DNA of 64,000 nt from the IMG/VR virus record IMGVR_UViG_3300026484_000065, positions 1 through 64,000 of that record. One strand, 5' to 3'. The notes beneath the pieces are model-generated. The model saw only the letters and a program-made list of their open reading frames with translations. It was not told where the DNA came from and searched no databases. The stretch is from a virus. The first letter of the stretch is position 1. Every line of letters starts with the position of its first letter. The position numbers were made by a program, and so were the translations under genes. Shown here piece after piece: positions 3,998 through 52,700 of this stretch.

Positions 3998-5401
3998 TTA
4001 AATGTCCTGAAGATTCTCATAGAAACTATCTGTAGTATCTTTATTGATGCTACCAACTAAATAATTTAATCCTGATGTTTCTTTCTGTGCAACTTGAACA
4101 GAAGAAATATTCTTAAATTCATTTAGCCATTTCATTGGATTTTCTTCAACTCTATTTATGAATGTTGGTACCAAACCAATACCCTGCATAACATTATAAG
4201 TGTTGTATTGACTATAAATCTTAGCAGACTGATTGTTTATACCTAATAATCTTGTTCCTTCTGGATATGTGTAATCTATCCATTCCAAATCAGCTTCATA
4301 AGCTTCTTTGTACATAGTTTCAACTTTGCCACTATTGACAACCTTATCAAATATGTACCCTAAATCATTAGACTTCTTTAATCTGTTAATGAGATATACA
4401 GTCATACCGTAATGTGATTGTTCCGCTTGTATTCATATTGCAATCGCTACTTTGCAATATCGAGCTTTTAACTCTGCTATATATTTCTATATAGGCTAGA
4501 CTATATCATAGCCCCCAGCACAACCTGGTAGGGCTCCTTGCTTTTCGACTCGCTTGAGTCTACTCTACTCGCTTCCATATGGTATTTTTTCAACACATAT
4601 GTGCTTTCGATAGTCGTTCGGCTTTTTATTTAGCACGGGATTGTCTTCGTCATTACACGGTCAGAGTTTCCCCGTTTAACAAGGTTTTCGATAGGCGTTA
4701 CTGCCTAAAGCGACTAATAGTTAATCGGCATTAATCTTCGCAATTATCTTGGCTGGTCCATCCATCATTCCGTTCTTAGCAAATGCAAATGAAGTATTAA
4801 AAGATGTGTCAAATAGTATATTCTCAAGAATATTGAGTCCATATAAAGCCAAGACAAAAGACTCTTTATGCTTCTCTATATTGTATCCAGGATGCCCAGC
4901 TATCATCATTGCATTTTGTTGGTACAATTCTTCAAAGACTTCTATAATCATTCTGGCTCTACGCTGAATATTATCATTGACCATAATAGTGTCAAACTCT
5001 TTCTCAGCATTAATTGGAAGAGCTTTAACAATATCTGCATATGCTAATGAATGGATTGATTCTGTAAAACCATGCAGTACCCAAAACCTTTCCATCTGTG
5101 GATTAGTTGTAATGGGTAGGAACATTTCTACAACACTTCTAGTAGCTAAACTATCTACTTCTTGTTGGAACTCTAAATTCTTTAAATATAGAGCTTTTAA
5201 TTCATCCCTCATAGTTGCATAGTCTACACTTGCTTGTGATAAATCAAAGTCACTTGGAAACCATAGTTTTCCTTGTAGTCTATCTGTAGCTTTAGTTATC
5301 CACTCCTCTATAGACAAGTCTAGTCTTGCTATATTTCTTCCAGTACCAAAAAACAAAGGTTCTTTAGTAAAATCTATATGTTGCATTTTAAATAAACTCA
5401 T
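3998..5401 (-). CDS. nrdB: Ribonucleotide reductase class Ia, small (radical) subunit, split by a group I intron
   Basis: Makes the tyrosyl radical that NrdA uses to reduce ribonucleotides. Exon 1 is 5401-4724 (226 codons) and exon 2 is 4423-3998 (141 codons), giving 367 residues once the 300-nt intron (4723-4424) is removed. All expected diiron ligands are visible: D in QQEVDS, E and H in TESIHSLAY with the radical Tyr three residues on, E in LNILENILF, and E and H in DEQSH. That last motif exists only in the spliced product: exon 1 ends with the Asp codon and exon 2 begins with the Glu codon. Without splicing, exon 1 stops at once (TAA) and lacks two ligands. It follows nrdA with 2 bp between them; the start is supported by GAGG upstream. 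Confidence 0.93.
4424..4723 (-). ncRNA. Group I intron (td-like, subgroup IA2 type), 300 nt, no ORF
   Basis: The last exon base is U and pairs with G in a P1 helix (exon CGAU with intron GUCG), and the intron ends in G, as group I splicing requires. Core sequences typical of T4 td-like introns are present on the minus strand: AGACAATCCCGTGCTAAAT (P4-P6 side), AACGACTATC and GATATAGTC (P3/P7), and a GACTCAAGCGAGTC hairpin (P8). It has no homing endonuclease frame. Removal restores the NrdB DExxH motif in frame, which fixes both splice sites. The resemblance to the T4 td/nrdB introns is from memory of those sequences, not from an alignment. Confidence 0.92.
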
Positions 5402-5403
5402 TT

Positions 5404-7629
5404 TTAAACCTCACAATCTGTACATACTAATTTATTATCATCTTCGTTTGGAGAATAAACGTTATGATAATAGATAGATTTTATTCCATACTTTTTACAG
5501 AAATATAAATCACTAATTAATTTTGTCATTGGTACTTTATTATCTTGATATAACTCAGGATTATAAAATACATCTAGTGATATAGATTGATCTATCCATT
5601 TCTGCATAATAGCAGCAACCTTTAGATAGCCAGTATTAACTTCTTCCCTGTCATACACAAAGTCATAATTACCTGCTAGCTTGGCACATTCAGGAGCAAA
5701 GAATTTTGTAACTATATTGGAAGATGATTTTGTATAAACCAAATCTCTAATAGGATAGATACTATTAGTTTGTCCACCAATAACTGCACTTGTTTCCGAA
5801 GGAGGAATTGACGTCAAACAAGTATTTGCCATTCCATACTTTAATACTTGATTCTTTAACCAGTACCAATCTAAAGTAGTCTTGTGCTCTAATAATTTAT
5901 CTACATTCTTATTTCTTCTTTCATAAGGCATTACACCTCTGCTATAAGAAGTCAATCCAAATTTCTTTGGTACAAAATCATATTCTTTTGCATATTCCAT
6001 AGATGCTTTAATTAGATAGTATGTAAAGTGCTCCATGTACTCATCAATAACCTCTAGCGCCTTAGGAGATGTGTATCTGATTCCCTGTTTAGCTAAGAAG
6101 TAAGCTGTGTTAGATACACCAATGCCTAAAGCCATATATTGCTCAACAAATGCATTCGATTGTGACATAGGATGATTTTGCTTACGCACATTGTTATTAA
6201 GCATATACACCAATGATTTAGTTACCGATGGCAATTCCTCTAAGCTGACTTTTCCCATATTCACATTTGATAAAATACAGATAGCTATAGAAGGGTCATT
6301 TGGTAGAAACGACTGAACTGGTTTCGTTGGCAAAGCTATTTCAACACATGCTTGTGATTGAATAATATCTTCATCAAATGGCGTGTTATTGTTCATTTCA
6401 TCGATATGAACAATATAGTGTTTACCTATCTCCTGTCTGACTTCTGGTAATTGTTCCAATAGATACTTAGCATTAATCTTTTTATTGCTAACTCCTCTTG
6501 CTTCTAGTGCCTCATAAACAAGAACAAATTCTTCATAGTTTTTACTTGTGAATAACTCATACAGTACCAAACTATCTCTTGAACTAAATAGTGTTATATC
6601 TTCATTCTTAGCAGCTCTGTCATACAGCAACTGATTAACTTTGATTCCATAAGATAAATTAACTATACGTTTATTTGCTTCTGTTCTTGGTGAAGCTATA
6701 TTTAGTATTGTTTCTATCTCTGGATCAAAGAATGCTATAAAAGCTGTTCCTGTACCTCTTCTACCATTTTGCTGTGAAGCATTAACATCAGCTTCTAGTT
6801 TCTTTAGTAGTGGTACTTTCCCAGAATGCTTAATCTTGCCATTCTTGACCATATCACCTATAGATGCCACTAGTGAATAATCTAACCCAACACCTGAACT
6901 AGCTGCTGTATGATTTACCACAGCTTTACTAGCTTCATTCCAACTATCAATGTTGTCACCAACTGTAATTTTGGTACATGAAGCTAAAATAAATTCATTT
7001 GTTCTTATATGGTTCATAGCTGGTGAAGGTAAAGATATTTTGAAAGTTGATAGATCGTCATAAAATTCGATACATTCATCAATTTTACCTGGATGCAGTA
7101 CCAAAGCTATAGCAGCAAAGATTACATTAGGAGATTCAATTACTCTACCATCTTTGTTATGTATAGTATATTTCTTTTTGAGATACTCTATGCCTGCACC
7201 TGTAAAAGTAAAATCTCTATTGTGATCTATAACCTCATTAAATTTATCTAAATCTTCGTCTGTAAATGAATTCAGAATATCATCTACATAGTACCCTCTA
7301 TCAATCAAATCCTTGATAATAAGTTTTATATGCTTAAAGTCTTCATTCTTTGATATACCAAAAGCTTCTTTACGTATATTCAAGCTCATTAATCTTGCAT
7401 ATACAAAATCATAATTTGGTCTACGTAAATCAGCCATATCTTTGATAGTGTCCATAACTATTTTATCTATAGCTGATGTTTTAATCCCATCATAGAAGTG
7501 TATTTGTATATTAGCTTCTATATCTATTGTTGATACTTTATCTAAACCACTACATGCCCATTCAATAGACTTAGATATCTTACTAATATCTAATGGTTCA
7601 TATGTACCATTTTTCTTTAATACTTTCAT
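5404..7629 (-). CDS. nrdA: Ribonucleotide reductase class Ia, large (catalytic) subunit
   Basis: Reduces ribonucleoside diphosphates to deoxyribonucleotides for phage DNA synthesis. The 741-residue length is normal for the class. An N-terminal ATP-cone (about residues 1-90) should give allosteric control. The redox cysteines are in place: FILASCTK (C225-like), SQACVEIAL (C439 and E441-like) and AICILSN (C462-like). The radical-transfer tyrosine pair is in KSIYYHN, and the C-terminal thioredoxin-shuttle pair is CTDCEV. The gene is uninterrupted, unlike nrdB. It lies 2 bp upstream of nrdB and after a terminator that separates it from the broken HU gene. Confidence 0.95.
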   Translation of the reverse strand: MKVLKKNGTYEPLDISKISKSIEWACSGLDKVSTIDIEANIQIHFYDGIKTSAIDKIVMDTIKDMADLRRPNYDFVYARLMSLNIRKEAFGISKNEDFKHIKLIIKDLIDRGYYVDDILNSFTDEDLDKFNEVIDHNRDFTFTGAGIEYLKKKYTIHNKDGRVIESPNVIFAAIALVLHPGKIDECIEFYDDLSTFKISLPSPAMNHIRTNEFILASCTKITVGDNIDSWNEASKAVVNHTAASSGVGLDYSLVASIGDMVKNGKIKHSGKVPLLKKLEADVNASQQNGRRGTGTAFIAFFDPEIETILNIASPRTEANKRIVNLSYGIKVNQLLYDRAAKNEDITLFSSRDSLVLYELFTSKNYEEFVLVYEALEARGVSNKKINAKYLLEQLPEVRQEIGKHYIVHIDEMNNNTPFDEDIIQSQACVEIALPTKPVQSFLPNDPSIAICILSNVNMGKVSLEELPSVTKSLVYMLNNNVRKQNHPMSQSNAFVEQYMALGIGVSNTAYFLAKQGIRYTSPKALEVIDEYMEHFTYYLIKASMEYAKEYDFVPKKFGLTSYSRGVMPYERRNKNVDKLLEHKTTLDWYWLKNQVLKYGMANTCLTSIPPSETSAVIGGQTNSIYPIRDLVYTKSSSNIVTKFFAPECAKLAGNYDFVYDREEVNTGYLKVAAIMQKWIDQSISLDVFYNPELYQDNKVPMTKLISDLYFCKKYGIKSIYYHNVYSPNEDDNKLVCTDCEV

Positions 7630-14860: not shown

Positions 14861-17061
14861 TAGTTCCTCCTAGCTATTGAAGTTACTTCTTTATCGCTCA
14901 ACGGCTCAGAAAGTAGGTTATTTAGCTCAAACAGTACCAACTCAACATTATGTACTCCTATCTCCTCAAGAAGCTTCTTCGCAGAATATAGGTTACTATT
15001 TCTTGAACCTGTTGCTGTATTAACAACAAACCATTTCTTGATTCCTGCAACACGTCTTTCTACCTCATCTTCATAATCAACTCCAGAATCCATTAGTTTG
15101 TTAAGGATCTCTAATGCATGATTACCTTGTTCTGTTTCAGGTATAAACGCTTGAGCATTTAATTTTGTACCAACATTAGTAAATACCTCAGCTTCTGGAT
15201 TCGTGAACCAAAGTCTTGATATGTTGGTTGTAGCTTGGTCATATACCTTGAACCCAAAGAATTCAGCTATATTCTTATACATCTTCTTATGTTGTTCAGG
15301 ATCTACATAATACTTATTTGTTGTTGGTACTAAAATACGAAATCTATCACCTTGCATTTCACCATTTTTTTCTTTTCTATGAGACCTTGTTGTGTAGATG
15401 ATGTATGTATAGTCTTTTAAAAGCTCTCTAGCTTCTTTAAGGGTCATTCCATCATCTATATCGAATCCAATTAGATTTTGTCCCTTAATAGCATTATCTG
15501 CCCTTCTATGACCTGCTCCCTGAGTAGTTGCAAGTTTCTCAGACATAGCTGTTGGTTCATACCATGATGTAGTAAAGCTTTTTGCTTTATTGGAACGTAC
15601 CAAAGCTTCTATAGATGGAGCTTCTCCAAAGAAATTAACTTCCAATGGAAGAAAAGATGCAGATGCTTGAGGCTCTATCTTCTTTTGCTCATAATCATGA
15701 ACATCGATTGAACAAATAATCTTATCCATCTCTGTTTTAGATGGTTCTTCCATATAGAAATATCTTGTATTCTTTCCTGTAACATTAGGAACATAGCCTT
15801 TGTAATAAGCATAGTCTTTAAATAGCTCTATTGTCTCTTCACGTATTTGTTTGGTACTCCCCAGGTTAACACCATAAGAATCAAGCTCGTGTATAGACAA
15901 TTTTCTCTTAGCCAATTTCAGAACATTGAATAAATCTTTATGAATACTTATTGGATTGATTATATTTGAGATAGTCTCTCTTGACTCTTTAAAGATTGAA
16001 TATGCAGATTCTAAATGCTCTAAAGTTAATGTCATTGAGCTATCAAGAATGCATAATAAGTGAGCTATATTATCAATCATGTCAATTGAAGACACATCTA
16101 TTGTTAACCACTTATCAGCAAGATTGTCATTTGCCTTGTCTATTAGTTCGTCTTGTATTGAAACAAGTCTTTCTTTATAATCTTGTTGGTGCCCAAACTC
16201 TAAAGCTTCTTTGTAGTTCTTTGTGTTTGATTTGATAATAGCTTTTATTGAATCTATATAGCTAAATAGCTCATTAAGTTCTTCTTCTTGCATCTCAACA
16301 TTTTCACTGCTTTGACGTTCAATAGGTTTTGGCTCAAAGTTGAAGATTACAGATCTTCTGTATAGACCAGATTCAAGAAGCTTGAGTAATTGTTCTTTAT
16401 CTTTCTTTGATACACCAGCTTCAGAACCAAACAATAGTATATTTGTTGTAAGATTATCTACTTGAGGAGTGTTCTCAGATTTTGTTACTTTAGCTTTAAT
16501 GGTACCATCATATGCTTCTTTCAGCTTATTCAAAGCTTCTGCTGAATTTGTAACAATATCACCAAGTTCACTAACAGAAACATTGATGCTTGAAAATTGA
16601 GCAGCAGCAACTGCATATGATGTAGCAACAAAACCCTCTTTTGTACCCTCAATAGATACAGTTATATCTCTTGGAATATAATTCAACAAGGCATCTAAAC
16701 CTTTCTTTTCTCCAAGAACAAAACTATTCTCAACTTCATGTTTTAATCTTTCATCACCTTCAACATTCGCAATCAATTCTTGTTTCATAGCTTCATGATA
16801 TACAGTTCTGTTAAAGTTAAACACATCAGCAACAGTACCAAAACTAAAGTCCTTACCAAATCCACTTCCAGCAAGAGTTACACCAAAAAACTTTATATTC
16901 TTACCATTACTATTAAGTACCAAACCTGATGTTAAGTTTGCCAATATTGATGTATAAAACAATAATGGGTTTAGATAGATGTACCTATCTGATTTAAATT
17001 TACCTTGTATCTCAAGCTTATCAAGTATGTATTTTAAAGATTCTGTTTCTTTAATTTTCAT
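14860..17061 (-). CDS. Replicative helicase-primase: N-terminal DUF3987-like ATPase, C-terminal AEP-type primase
   Basis: 733 residues. The N-terminal part (about 1-400) has a Walker-A-like loop LAGSGFGKDFS and resembles DUF3987 helicase-type ATPases. The C-terminal part carries archaeo-eukaryotic primase features: LIGFDIDDGMTLKEARE (acidic catalytic pair), IIYTTRSHRKEKNG...QGDRFRILVPTT, then a PriCT-like end (NSNLYSAKKLLEEIG...LSDKEVTSIARRN). Primase usually comes first in phage fusions, so the order is reversed. It would unwind DNA and lay primers at the phage fork. It sits next to a RepL-like protein. Confidence 0.75.
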   Translation of the reverse strand: MKIKETESLKYILDKLEIQGKFKSDRYIYLNPLLFYTSILANLTSGLVLNSNGKNIKFFGVTLAGSGFGKDFSFGTVADVFNFNRTVYHEAMKQELIANVEGDERLKHEVENSFVLGEKKGLDALLNYIPRDITVSIEGTKEGFVATSYAVAAAQFSSINVSVSELGDIVTNSAEALNKLKEAYDGTIKAKVTKSENTPQVDNLTTNILLFGSEAGVSKKDKEQLLKLLESGLYRRSVIFNFEPKPIERQSSENVEMQEEELNELFSYIDSIKAIIKSNTKNYKEALEFGHQQDYKERLVSIQDELIDKANDNLADKWLTIDVSSIDMIDNIAHLLCILDSSMTLTLEHLESAYSIFKESRETISNIINPISIHKDLFNVLKLAKRKLSIHELDSYGVNLGSTKQIREETIELFKDYAYYKGYVPNVTGKNTRYFYMEEPSKTEMDKIICSIDVHDYEQKKIEPQASASFLPLEVNFFGEAPSIEALVRSNKAKSFTTSWYEPTAMSEKLATTQGAGHRRADNAIKGQNLIGFDIDDGMTLKEARELLKDYTYIIYTTRSHRKEKNGEMQGDRFRILVPTTNKYYVDPEQHKKMYKNIAEFFGFKVYDQATTNISRLWFTNPEAEVFTNVGTKLNAQAFIPETEQGNHALEILNKLMDSGVDYEDEVERRVAGIKKWFVVNTATGSRNSNLYSAKKLLEEIGVHNVELVLFELNNLLSEPLSDKEVTSIARRN

Positions 17062-17324: not shown

Positions 17325-17537
17325 CTAATCCTCATGTTTTTCTTGATGACAGCTTTTATATAATGTAATAAGATCATCAAGTTCTTCATTGTATAAAAAG
17401 TGTGACAATTGATGCTATAGCAAACAGTACCAATATATGCCATGTTTAAAAAGTGCTTTGAAGTACCATTGTTAGGAGCCAAAAAAGGCTTTGTTGCAAT
17501 ATTCTCTTTATACAAAAGAAGCAAATTCTTATTTATT
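17325..17537 (-). pseudogene. Remnant of an HNH-type nuclease or zinc protein
   Basis: At 17414-17325 a frame without a start codon reads HQLSHFLYNEELDDLITLYK then SCHQEKHED and a stop. This matches the typical C-terminal end of HNH nucleases (His, then 'DLITLC..CH...H'). Upstream, CYSINC and KHGIYWYC fragments fall in other frames, separated by stops. It looks like a decayed homing-type HNH gene squeezed between the RepL-like and 71-aa genes. Sequencing error cannot be excluded. Confidence 0.5.
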
Positions 17538-25232: not shown

Positions 25233-26648
25233 CTACGGTAAAGTAATTTGCTTACCACCTACAATTTTTGGATTCATCTCTCTACCATCATTTGTTACCA
25301 GCCAGATAGGATGAGATTTTTTCAATGTTGGATAATTTCCAATTAAAGATTCAATATCACTATACATATCTGATAAACTAATGAAGATTAATTCATCTTT
25401 TGAATTCTTCATAATCTGTTCCGCTCTATCAAACACAGCTTTATGAGAAGTGCCACCACTACCATGTCTTGTAGAAAAAGCTTCTCTAAACATAGAGTCG
25501 TTTTTAATATCATACTCATCATTTAGGTGGTACTCTTTAATAATATCTGTTGTATGAATTAACACATGCACTTCATTAATCTTTTTAGATTTCTTTTTCA
25601 TAACATATAGAAGTTTCTGCAAGTCTTCTGTATGAAATGAGCCTGATTGGTCAATGGCAATAATGAGCTTTAATTTTGTGTCTGCATTAATCTCAGTAGG
25701 AGCTTTATAGATATGTCTTAATTCGCTATCAATATTTTCCCATGATTGATAAGACTCATGAGTCTTGTGATTAACTTGTACTTCAAAAGTACGTTTAAAA
25801 TCTTTAAACCAATCTACATTAATTTTTACTTCATCAAATACTTGTTGAAATAAAGTACCAATACTTGTACCTTTCGTTGCTGTAGAAATACTCTCTTCAA
25901 TGCGTTCAGCTAATGCAGCCAACGTTCTATCTCTATCATCTTTTTTGATAGATTGAGCACCTTTAAAAGAACCATTATCAATAGCTTTATCTTTCTGTTT
26001 CGTAACATAAGTTAAATCTGTATGTGTTACTTTTGCAAACTTACCTTTGAACTTTTTGATCTTTAGTTTGGTGCTATCTAATTGTGTAATGATAGTTTCT
26101 GCAGGTTCTAATTTGCCCCACGAATTAACAATGTAATCGATTGTCTTCCATTTATCTAACCCACTTGATTGACTAAGTAGCTCTTTAACAAATGTATTGA
26201 TAGCTAATGTATTTGCTAATTCAATAAGATAGAATGGTTCCTCCCTATCTTGTACCAATCTAAACATTTTAGCTTCATGCGCATAAGAAAAGTACCCTCT
26301 AACAATCCACTGAATAGATTTTAAATATTGATATGTAAAATAAATAGTATGCTTCTTGGAAACTTTTAAAATATGTTTTAGATGCTTATCATCTGCATAT
26401 AGAATTGTAAGCTCTACTGCTTCATCTGTTACTTCTACAGATATTAATTCATCTAATTGTTGCACATCAAGTTTTTTGGTACTCTCTACTTCATCCGACT
26501 CTTCAAGAATAATCTTGATTGGTAGCTCAAGAAACAAACCTGTAGACAAGAAAGCTGTTTTGCTTTGTCCCATAACTTGATTTAAATCTACTACAACTTC
26601 TTTAAGAACTTCTCTTCTAAACTCTTTGATAAACTTTTCTTTAGTCAT
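25233..26648 (-). CDS. VWA/MIDAS protein (DUF2201/CoxE-like), partner of MoxR ATPase
   Basis: 471 residues. The C-terminal third is a von Willebrand A-type domain: LIIAIDQSGSFHTED (MIDAS DxSxS), GSGGTSHKAVFD (MIDAS Thr loop) and FISLSDMYSD. The N-terminal part is helical and unassigned. MoxR-type AAA+ ATPases and VWA proteins act together as metal-dependent chaperone systems (RavA-ViaA, MoxR-CoxE); the MoxR-like gene is directly upstream. A phage copy may remodel a host or virion protein. The roles are inferred. Confidence 0.8.
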   Translation of the reverse strand: MTKEKFIKEFRREVLKEVVVDLNQVMGQSKTAFLSTGLFLELPIKIILEESDEVESTKKLDVQQLDELISVEVTDEAVELTILYADDKHLKHILKVSKKHTIYFTYQYLKSIQWIVRGYFSYAHEAKMFRLVQDREEPFYLIELANTLAINTFVKELLSQSSGLDKWKTIDYIVNSWGKLEPAETIITQLDSTKLKIKKFKGKFAKVTHTDLTYVTKQKDKAIDNGSFKGAQSIKKDDRDRTLAALAERIEESISTATKGTSIGTLFQQVFDEVKINVDWFKDFKRTFEVQVNHKTHESYQSWENIDSELRHIYKAPTEINADTKLKLIIAIDQSGSFHTEDLQKLLYVMKKKSKKINEVHVLIHTTDIIKEYHLNDEYDIKNDSMFREAFSTRHGSGGTSHKAVFDRAEQIMKNSKDELIFISLSDMYSDIESLIGNYPTLKKSHPIWLVTNDGREMNPKIVGGKQITLP

Positions 26649-26725: not shown

Positions 26726-27910
26726 CTACAGAATATAATTACTTATTTTTTGAAGGAATGTCTTTTTGTCTTTGAAATCAACTTTCTCTAAAGCTTTCTC
26801 ATCTTTCTTAGATAACTTGTATTTGGTACTATCAAATGTACCCATTAATTTCTCAAGCACAATTTGTTGCCCTTTGGTAATCTCTTCACCATTGACATTT
26901 TGAGAATATTTACTAGCCATTTCAGCAGACAAGAATCCAATAAACGTATCATTCTCATCTAATGCAGTATTGATAAGATCAAGCATATATTTTGCATCTA
27001 TAGGCTTAACTATATGATTAAAGATATATGAATATAAGATCTCATCAATAAAGTCCATGTCTTTGAAGTTTGGTACTATTTGTTTATTTACCTTTTCTTC
27101 AAAGTTGATAGAGTTAACATATTGCACATGTTTATTGAATTCTCTTGCAACATCATTAGACACAAAGCCTTTAGCAACCATATAAGCATTTTCACTAATA
27201 AATGCATTATCTAATGAATCTAGCATATTTGAAAAATATTCCCAGCTTCTTGGTGATGCTGAAGATTCAAGATCTTCTGTTTCTTCTTCGCTAATATAGC
27301 TTGGATTCTTTCTCACGAAAGATGAAACATACATATTTAGTTTGGCACCAAAATTATCAATCCAGTATTCGCTGTTTAACTCAACTTCAACTAGCTGCAT
27401 TCTATCTTTAACTGGTGTATCCATTAACTGCATACCAGCAGCTTCACTATCATTCATAGTTAGTACAATAGCTACTTTATCGTGCAGCCTATATTGTCCC
27501 ATACGTCTATCTAATAATAATTCGTATAGAACTGCTTGGGTAGATCTATTTACCTTATGAACATCATCTAGTAGTACCACACATCCACCATGCTTTTCAG
27601 CTTCAAGGTTAGCTCTAACAACTAATTCAGGAGCTGTCCACTCTGTAACCTTTGATTGTGTTAGTCCATCAATTTTGTATTTATTCAGTTCTTCTGCATC
27701 TACAAAATCTGGTAATCCTAAATAATATTGAATTCCTCGTGATGGCATAGATACTTCTACTGTTGGTACTCCTAATTCCTTAGCAATTGTTTTCACACTG
27801 CTTGATTTACCTAGTCCTGGCTTACTTTTTAAACAAATAGGCAGAACCTGTTTGTTATCTAATTGTGCTTTTACATTAGCTCTTAATAATTGCATTACCG
27901 TGTTATTCAT
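26726..27910 (-). CDS. MoxR-family AAA+ ATPase
   Basis: 394 residues. Walker A KSKPGLGKSSSVK (about residue 30), Walker B CVVLLDDVHKVN, sensor 1 VAIVLTMNDSEA, arginine finger PVKDRMQLVEV. The order and the loop SMPSRGIQYYLGLPDF fit the MoxR clade. It forms a two-gene set with the VWA protein downstream (77-bp gap). It overlaps the upstream 148-aa gene by 8 bp. Confidence 0.82.
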   Translation of the reverse strand: MNNTVMQLLRANVKAQLDNKQVLPICLKSKPGLGKSSSVKTIAKELGVPTVEVSMPSRGIQYYLGLPDFVDAEELNKYKIDGLTQSKVTEWTAPELVVRANLEAEKHGGCVVLLDDVHKVNRSTQAVLYELLLDRRMGQYRLHDKVAIVLTMNDSEAAGMQLMDTPVKDRMQLVEVELNSEYWIDNFGAKLNMYVSSFVRKNPSYISEEETEDLESSASPRSWEYFSNMLDSLDNAFISENAYMVAKGFVSNDVAREFNKHVQYVNSINFEEKVNKQIVPNFKDMDFIDEILYSYIFNHIVKPIDAKYMLDLINTALDENDTFIGFLSAEMASKYSQNVNGEEITKGQQIVLEKLMGTFDSTKYKLSKKDEKALEKVDFKDKKTFLQKISNYIL

Positions 27911-49757: not shown

Positions 49758-52700
49758 ATGATTGCTAAAGGATTTGATAATAAAACAGGAATCACGCTAG
49801 GTAGCGGGTCTGATGTTTCTAAAGATAAAGCAATTTATGATGCTTCAGATTCAATAGATGGCATACTGGATATTTCGTATAATGCTTATGGGTACACAAA
49901 AGAACTGAAGAAAAGTGAAAGGTTTGAGGAGACAAATACTCCTTATATTATTCAAGAAAAGGGTGGAGACGCCATTAGATTTAGTAAAGGATTAGTAAAA
50001 AGAAATAATGCAGAAAACATTCATTTGCCCTTAGCTCCTTTTGCTGATGGTTCAACAGATGAGTTGCTGAGCCATAGTGACAATGGTTTTGAAACACAGG
50101 TGGACCACAAAGCTGGAGACATTATTCATTGTGGAGATGGTGCAGAGTTGGTTAGTAATGGTACGTTTGACAGTGATGTAGATGGATGGGAGGCACATAA
50201 TGCAGATATTAGCTCAGAAAGTGGAAAGCTAAAGGTTGATGACAGTGCAGATAGTGGAGGCAATAGTTGTGCTTCGCAAAGCTTAAGCCTAGTTGCTGGT
50301 GTTAAATATTTAATACGAGTAGATTTAATTGATGCTACTGATACTACATATGTTCAAATAGGCTCATCATCATCAAAATATGAAACGTTAGAGAGAGTGC
50401 TTTCGCTTGGAGACAACTCGTTTGAGTTTACCGCAGATGATAAATCTACAAACATAAACTTAGTGGTTGCAAACGACAAGATAGCTTACTTTGACAACAT
50501 CTCAGTAAAACCAGTTGAACAAACATATCAATCATTAGTACCAACAACTAGCGGAGATTTAGTCACAGATGGTACAAGGTTCTCAAAGATTGATTTTGTT
50601 TCAAGACAAGATGTAATCTTCATTGGAGAAGATGGTAAATATAAAACAATCAAAGGTTATCATAACTTCCCAGCTGGCTTTAGTGCAGATGATGTAGCTA
50701 ATGCTTATGGGTTTACTAAAAAAGGTAAAGGTTTATTTGAAGTAAATGATTTAGAATGTGTTGGAGATGATGGAGTTGCAACTACTTATACTGGAGAGAT
50801 TACAAGCATTAGTTTAGTTAGCAGATTGAATGCAGGTGCTTATCATCCTGCTCACAACGCATTTGGTACTTCAGCAACTTCCGAAACTGATGACCCTGGC
50901 AGTATTTCCGCAAGAAGCTGGTATTCTCGTGACGCCTACAACATTACAAGCACTTACGAAACATTTGAGACCTGTGAGCTTGAAGATGATGTAGCAAAAG
51001 GCAGTAGAAATTACCGAAACTACATAAATGAGTCTGAAGATAACTCATATAGACCTGATAAGAAACATTGTGATAAAGTTTATTTTGAGGGACTTGGTGG
51101 ATTAATTTTCAGAAATACGTTGGCTATTAAACCAAATAAAAAAGATTTATTGGAAGATGAAACTAACGAGCTAGTTGATGTTGATGAGATGAATGAAGAG
51201 TGTGGTGTTAGGTGTAAAATGATTAAAGGTAACTCGGCTTACCTGTGGGGTTCAAATAATGGAAAAACAAATGAGGTTAGATTTACAGGATTAGTAGATA
51301 CTTCTACAATAAGCATTGGAACTGGTTTGAGTGGATACTACTTAGTATCAGGCACAGTACACGCAGTTAGAGGAACTGTTACATCTATGCTAGATAATAG
51401 TTGGGTTACAATAACAGTAGATAGTGGTTTGACCAATGGAAATACTGGTGCATCAGATAGATATGGTGTTGATGCAGTGCTGACAACACCATTGAATCAG
51501 CTCCTTCAACAGGGCAAAGTATTAACTATTGATGTTGTAGGTAATCCAGCTAAATATTCTATTTCAGATAGCCCAGATGAATTACATTCAGACTCAACAG
51601 ATAGTGGAGAGTTATTGAGACACGGTGCATTGTGTTGGAATGTAGACACAAATAAAATGTATATTTACCTAGATACAGATGACAGAGACAATGTGGATAT
51701 GACAGCTGAAGACTTTAATGATGTAGCCAAATATAAGTATGTTATTGGACGCTATCCTGATAGTTGGCACAATAGATTAGATAGTGGTCTGAGTTTGCCT
51801 TTTAATCCGTTACTAGTTGGGCAAGAGGGTAAGAATTACATACCTAGAGATATATCGAATCTCACAATACTTAGTAAAAAATCAAAACAATACTATTTGC
51901 TTTCGTGGAATGTAAAGGATAGTGATAAAACATTTTTTAATCGAGGAATTTATCCCCCACACCTAGAATCTAGCAAGGTGAATCACGTTTTACAACGCGG
52001 CACTTTTAAAACAAATATGGTTAGTGCCATTTTTTATCATTCTCTACCAACTCCAACAACACAATCAGACCCTAAACAGGTATTGATGGTAAGTGATAAA
52101 GTATTGGCATCGAATTCACTTTCTTGGTATCAAGGTGGGGGCATTGTTAATGCTGTAACTGGCAAGGTAAGTGTAGGAAACAACGAAATTACAGAAGTGA
52201 ATAGTCTAAATGGTTCCGTATGCGCAGATGGCTCAATAAAAGGAAAACTAGGGCACTCAACAATAAACCTAGACAATAGCAACTCTCCAGCTGCTAAAGC
52301 ATTTACAACTTTGTGTGTAGATGATAATGATGAGTTGCTTATAGGTCTTGTTGGTGAGGAGATAGTATGGGATTTTGAAGATGGTACACCGCATACATTT
52401 ATTAGCTGGGACAAGGATGATGATGAAGAAATAACATTGGTTAAAAATAGCATATATGTGTTCATACCAGAAAATCCAAATGGTACAAATAAAAATAGGA
52501 TTGATAATATATTCGCTAACAGAGTATATAGATATATTGGCGATGGGATGACAATAAACAGAAATGATGTTTATAGCTTAAAATTTAAGCTAGACAACGG
52601 TGGAGGTTCAAACTTTGGAAACATGATGATTCTTCCAGACGGAACACTTATGTACACTGGTGGAGCAAAATGTATTAACTTTGAGCTGTGGGGCGGCAAT

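Follow-up and report, generated by a model that had tools for sequence, protein, structure and literature searches.

Among the described systems closest to the locus analysed here, the nrdB gene of phage T4 is interrupted by a group I intron (598 nt as recovered here) that carries an endonuclease remnant, the defective I-TevIII. A td intron has been reported in the N4-like Vibrio phage pVa5 (PMC5746245), and a GIY-YIG nrdF intron of B. thuringiensis has been listed (PMC3073962). Collaborative homing of ORF-less phage introns, driven by free-standing endonucleases, has been described (PMC3984707), and the nrdA gene of Aeh1 provides a split reductase that functions without an intron (PMC3653736). 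Here we analyse the window, a stretch of 64,000 nucleotides (positions 1 to 64,000 of IMG/VR record IMGVR_UViG_3300026484_000065, a contig of 73,470 bases), in which a first-pass annotation had placed a compact group I intron in nrdB at positions 4424-4723. The gene belongs to ribonucleotide reductase, which makes the building blocks of DNA. Judged by sequence and predicted fold, this call is confirmed: the segment is a group I intron, and the nrdB that it interrupts is that of an N4-like phage.

Pieces of a large virion RNA polymerase are encoded at both ends of the contig (24-3554, plus strand, in the window, and contig positions 65434-73470, or L005 2435-10471; 1,176 and 2,679 residues, respectively), suggesting a nearly complete genome that was opened inside this gene. 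Together with a terminase that shares 44-49% identity with its counterparts in Acinetobacter phage Presley, Vibrio phage phi 1 and phages like them, these pieces assign the virus to the N4-like phages. Searches with NrdB and NrdA found no close relatives, although records very near the window may escape such searches. On the minus strand, nrdA (5404-7629) is followed by nrdB in two pieces. Exon 1 (4724-5401, minus strand) encodes residues 1-226 (M...IAKINAD) and terminates in ...GCC GAT at 4724 (Ile-Asn-Ala-Asp), and exon 2 (3998-4423, minus strand), which opens with GAA CAA TCA CAT at 4423 (Glu-Gln-Ser-His-Tyr-Gly), encodes residues 227-367 (EQSHYG...) and the stop codon.

Joining GAT to GAA yields the DEQSH motif, as had been proposed, with the joint between Asp226 and Glu227, and gives a complete class Ia small subunit (R2) of 367 amino acids that aligns with E. 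coli class Ia R2 across almost its entire length. The PF00268 profile matches the joined protein with E=6e-37, versus 1.4e-22 and 1.9e-7 for the separate parts, and its two halves adjoin exactly, exon 1 covering profile positions 10-191 and exon 2 positions 192-281. When the joined protein is aligned with six NrdB proteins from phages, all six metal ligands and the radical tyrosine (D83, E114, H117, Y121 and E193 in exon 1, E227 and H230 in exon 2) prove invariant; by these ligands and the tyrosine, the predicted joined product is the class Ia reductase small subunit, NrdB. In the alignment, Glu227 and His230 correspond to E. coli Glu238 and His241, which are metal ligands. The insertion point is thus a conserved, functionally critical codon boundary, and its invariance agrees with the earlier remark that insertion at such an active-site codon is typical of homing introns. 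The comparison with intronless relatives that had been suggested as a check gave a uniform result: Asp and Glu are joined without interruption in every one of 86 R2 genes retrieved from phage genomes and viral contigs.

The intron reads TAACTATTAG...ACAAGCG from 4723 to 4424 and ends in the terminal G at 4424 (G↓GAA, the arrow marking the splice site here and below). Its boundaries are exact: the junction cannot slide, because intron and exon 2 open with different bases (T and G, respectively), and exon 1 and intron likewise close with different ones (again T and G). A search with the Rfam group I model, the other check that had been suggested, returned a full-length match of RF00028 (model positions 1-253) to positions 4733-4477. 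The match begins 10 bases ahead of the 5' splice site, extends to the end of P9 and scores 63.4 bits against a gathering score of 50 (E=1.1e-15 in a search of 751 bases and 2.6e-17 in a search of the phage's own genome). RF00028 scans of the whole window missed the intron, presumably through speed filters. RF00028 also matched weakly within the primase gene (16288-16410, 19.8 bits), which was taken as chance. The intron has a folding z of -3.4. All three forward frames contain several stops, so that the 300 nt hold no ORF of note, in line with the claim that the intron carries no endonuclease gene.

A model of helices P1 to P9.2 was drawn by hand from the window's own intron sequence, and all its helices consist of standard pairs. 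In P1 (4711-4727; this and all following helices on the minus strand), which reads CGAU↓UAA-cua-UUAGUCG in full, exon bases CGAU (4727-4724) and the adjoining intron UAA pair with UUAGUCG, leaving a U.G pair at the 5' splice site; the pairing of CGAU with GUCG, this U-G pair and the terminal G were all named in the first-pass annotation and are all found in the sequence. P2 is a hairpin (UAGGC/GCCUA, 4692-4707). The core, predicted by both RF00028 and the hand-drawn model, comprises P3 (CCUUG, 4680-4684, with CAAGG, 4536-4540), P4 (ACGGGG/UCCCGU) with P5 enclosed (4635-4675), a short P6 (GC/GC, 4621-4634) and P7 (GACUA, 4611-4615, with UAGUC, 4499-4503); P9 (CUAUAUA-GAAA-UAUAUAG, 4477-4494) has the same two sources. 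The model alone provides P7.1 (CAUAUG/CAUAUG, 4576-4601), P7.2 (GACUC/GAGUC, 4547-4560), P8 (AGCCC/GGGCU with CCAG/CUGG, 4510-4535) and P9.1 with the 9-bp P9.2 (4435-4474). Pairing of P10 with exon 2 is poor.

Covariation was assessed in an alignment of this intron with the nrdD intron of Fusobacterium phage phiKSUM and the nrdE intron of an Enterococcus phage, that is, three introns from three genes. Both sides change in 33 of the 77 helix pairs, and 90.6% of cells are paired, a value somewhat favoured by the drawing of the model from the window sequence, which does not favour the double changes in the other two introns. When partners were slid by 1-3 columns as a control, 32-42% of cells were paired and 3-6 pairs were double-changed; none of 500 shuffles matched the observed pairing values. 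P1 covaries (GUGU↓...GCAC in the nrdE intron versus CGAU↓...GUCG in nrdB), as do P2, P3, P4, P7.2 (three of five pairs double-changed), P8 and P9.2, whereas P7 is invariant, and P7.1 (55.6% of cells paired) and P9.1 are weakly supported. A core of P3 to P8 with the guanosine site in P7 is present and is backed by covariation. The additions between P7 and the 3' strand of P3, of which P7.2 is supported and P7.1 weak, hint, as in the T4 introns, at a possible IA2-like subgroup. The core had been described as td-like, which is borne out as far as this anatomy and the similarity to the T4 nrdB and other phage introns go.

Group I introns splice by an established route, in which guanosine bound at P7 cuts the 5' splice site, releasing exon 1 to attack the 3' splice site. 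In nrdB, the first cut would fall behind the U of GAU in P1 and the attack by exon 1 behind the terminal G, linking Asp226 to Glu227 and so restoring DEQSH and the R2 subunit. We put the probability that the intron, compact and without an endonuclease gene, self-splices from nrdB RNA in this way and restores R2 at roughly 0.93.

How the intron spreads is a separate matter. Models of GIY-YIG, HNH_3, HNH_2, LAGLIDADG_3 and NUMOD4 had no match in the 73,470-base contig, and scans of most contig ORFs against PHROGs and Pfam revealed no homing endonuclease. The intron therefore appears to be either immobile by itself or reliant on help in trans, in agreement with the first-pass annotation, and it could be a relic left after loss of an endonuclease gene, or a passenger that would spread only by recombination or through an endonuclease supplied in trans. 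Continued movement with an endonuclease encoded elsewhere, a rival to immobility and not to splicing, is the less probable course, given these searches, but deserves some weight. Such collaborative homing has precedent in ORF-less phage introns (PMC3984707), and the helper may be an undescribed free-standing endonuclease or one in another phage. A viral nrdF intron with a GIY-YIG-like frame occupies the identical codon boundary, which makes it probable that there are enzymes for this site. A further point in favour is an 18-residue stretch, LDDLITLYKSCHQEKHED, at 17331-17384 (minus strand), between two ORFs, which resembles the C-terminal half of an HNH nuclease at 16-17 bits, below the HNH cut-off and without an intact gene, and is perhaps the remnant of an endonuclease gene. 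A 471-residue protein encoded at about 25233-26648 (minus strand) and named 'HNH endonuclease' by phrog_1314 was not accepted as an endonuclease on the strength of that name, its only Pfam hit being a VWA-like domain below the cut-off. The gene adjoins an AAA-type ATPase gene (26726-27910), and the PHROG name may be wrong.

Two other rivals concern splicing itself. A dead gene or an assembly artefact, with a broken nrdB and an insert that has lost splicing, is very improbable: the intron DNA matches exactly only itself, in its own contig, one contig alone is known, and close relatives were not found, but the insertion is codon-precise, both exons are open and conserved up to their last residues, all core helices of the insert pair, and the insert has relatives in other phages. 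Least probable of all is a split gene without splicing, with halves translated separately and assembling into an enzyme, since, for all that such a reductase works in Aeh1 (PMC3653736) and both nrdB frames are open, the insert folds as a conserved ribozyme and an exon 2 half made from its first ATG (4405, six codons beyond the junction) would lose Glu227 and His230. Unspliced RNA would be translated only as far as Asp226, giving 226 residues, because the intron opens with an in-frame stop codon, TAA; the first-pass annotation rightly anticipated this end and the absence of two iron ligands, the equivalents of E. coli Glu238 and His241. Since exon 2 offers no usable start codon ahead of Glu227, splicing explains the locus more economically. 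By default, nrdB would be called as two truncated genes, and the intron thus calls for a correction of the annotation.

By sequence, the intron is nearest to the one that phiKSUM carries in nrdD, to those that Vibrio phages have in an ssb-like gene and to one in the nrdE of an Enterococcus phage, and not to the nrdF intron that shares its insertion site (viral contig L148); P1 is practically the same in the phiKSUM and Vibrio introns as in nrdB. The phiKSUM intron resembles the present one in lacking an ORF, in its length (318 nt), in its P1 (CCGAU↓UAACUA.UAGUCG) and in the covarying P2, P3, P4, P7.2 and P8, but lies in an anaerobic reductase gene in another insertion context. This unannotated intron (L012 3006-3323) splits nrdD at SP(M)GCR, and the annotation of that nrdD as several pieces suggests further interruptions. 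In Vibrio phage 495E54-1, an unannotated group I intron (81 bits; L002 3012-3330, record positions 52179-52497) interrupts the last codons of the ssb-like gene, which reads ...DDD↓IPF-stop once joined; the annotated protein stops early, at the intron.

None of the branches in a tree of seven introns was supported, so that statements of kinship rest on pairwise identity, and separate arrival of the nrdB intron is a lead, not a result. It is conceivable, if on balance doubtful, that the Asp-Glu boundary is a shared homing site hit repeatedly in class Ia and class Ib genes, and that the nrdB intron reached it independently, derived from an nrdD- or ssb-type intron that has the same CGAU guide and not from the nrdF intron. 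Near-identical short CGAT↓TAA introns occur at at least two different sites in loci L108-L138, many of them in tape-measure-like genes of probable prophages, and are possibly one ORF-less intron spreading to new sites. The many ORF-less CGAT↓TAA introns raised the idea of an IStron, an intron fused to an IS605-type element, which was rejected: the loci had the look of plain introns, often within tape-measure-like genes, the stretches read showed no transposase, and the CGAT common to these loci was imposed by the search pattern.

The intron at the identical boundary was detected by a pattern search. In L148 (2334-3366), nrdF is cut exactly between Asp and Glu of DExxH, with PF00268 split between positions 191 and 192 as in the window's nrdB; this intron also has U before it and G at its end and matches RF00028 (in two pieces), but differs in its length of 1,033 nt, its GIY-YIG-like frame, its class Ib gene and its guide (GGGAU/GUCC), and is not the closest by sequence. 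It is possibly of the same kind as the B. thuringiensis nrdF intron (PMC3073962). It was the one true case for the nrdF pattern among viral contigs, the remaining hits being chance. The corresponding pattern for class Ia, designed to find R2 genes with a break behind Asp, which recovers 49 of 80 intact R2 loci and would therefore miss about four in ten, found none in viral_contigs or genome_contigs, and the 11 hits of a looser pattern were all rejected as chance.

Two other group I introns interrupt the DExxH region of nrdF, both with HNH-type frames: that of the SPbeta type (phi3Ts, YosQ), 10 nt upstream of the present site, and that of Enterococcus phage 3e, about 19 nt downstream, with boundaries placed by P1 and terminal-G rules and not taken from a paper. 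With introns at or within 20 nt of the Asp-Glu boundary in several R2 genes, the DExxH helix is a recurrent target. The T4 nrdB intron shares the gene, the RF00028 match and a core 67-70% identical, but lies about 74 nt upstream, where it splits the Cys codon of SFAC behind its first base. The pVa5 intron likewise belongs to group I and interrupts a gene of nucleotide metabolism in an N4-like phage, and is 279 nt without its endonuclease, but lies in td and is accompanied by an HNH gene. The present intron leaves the understanding of group I introns unchanged, offers a small ribozyme handy for splicing tests and extends the set of phage reductases split by introns to an N4-like nrdB. Compared with the known systems, it is a clear but ordinary addition to the known phage introns, probably IA2-like, compact and ORF-less, in a known target gene and at a recurrently hit site, where its 300 nt occupy the exact boundary that holds an endonuclease-type intron in a reductase of another class.
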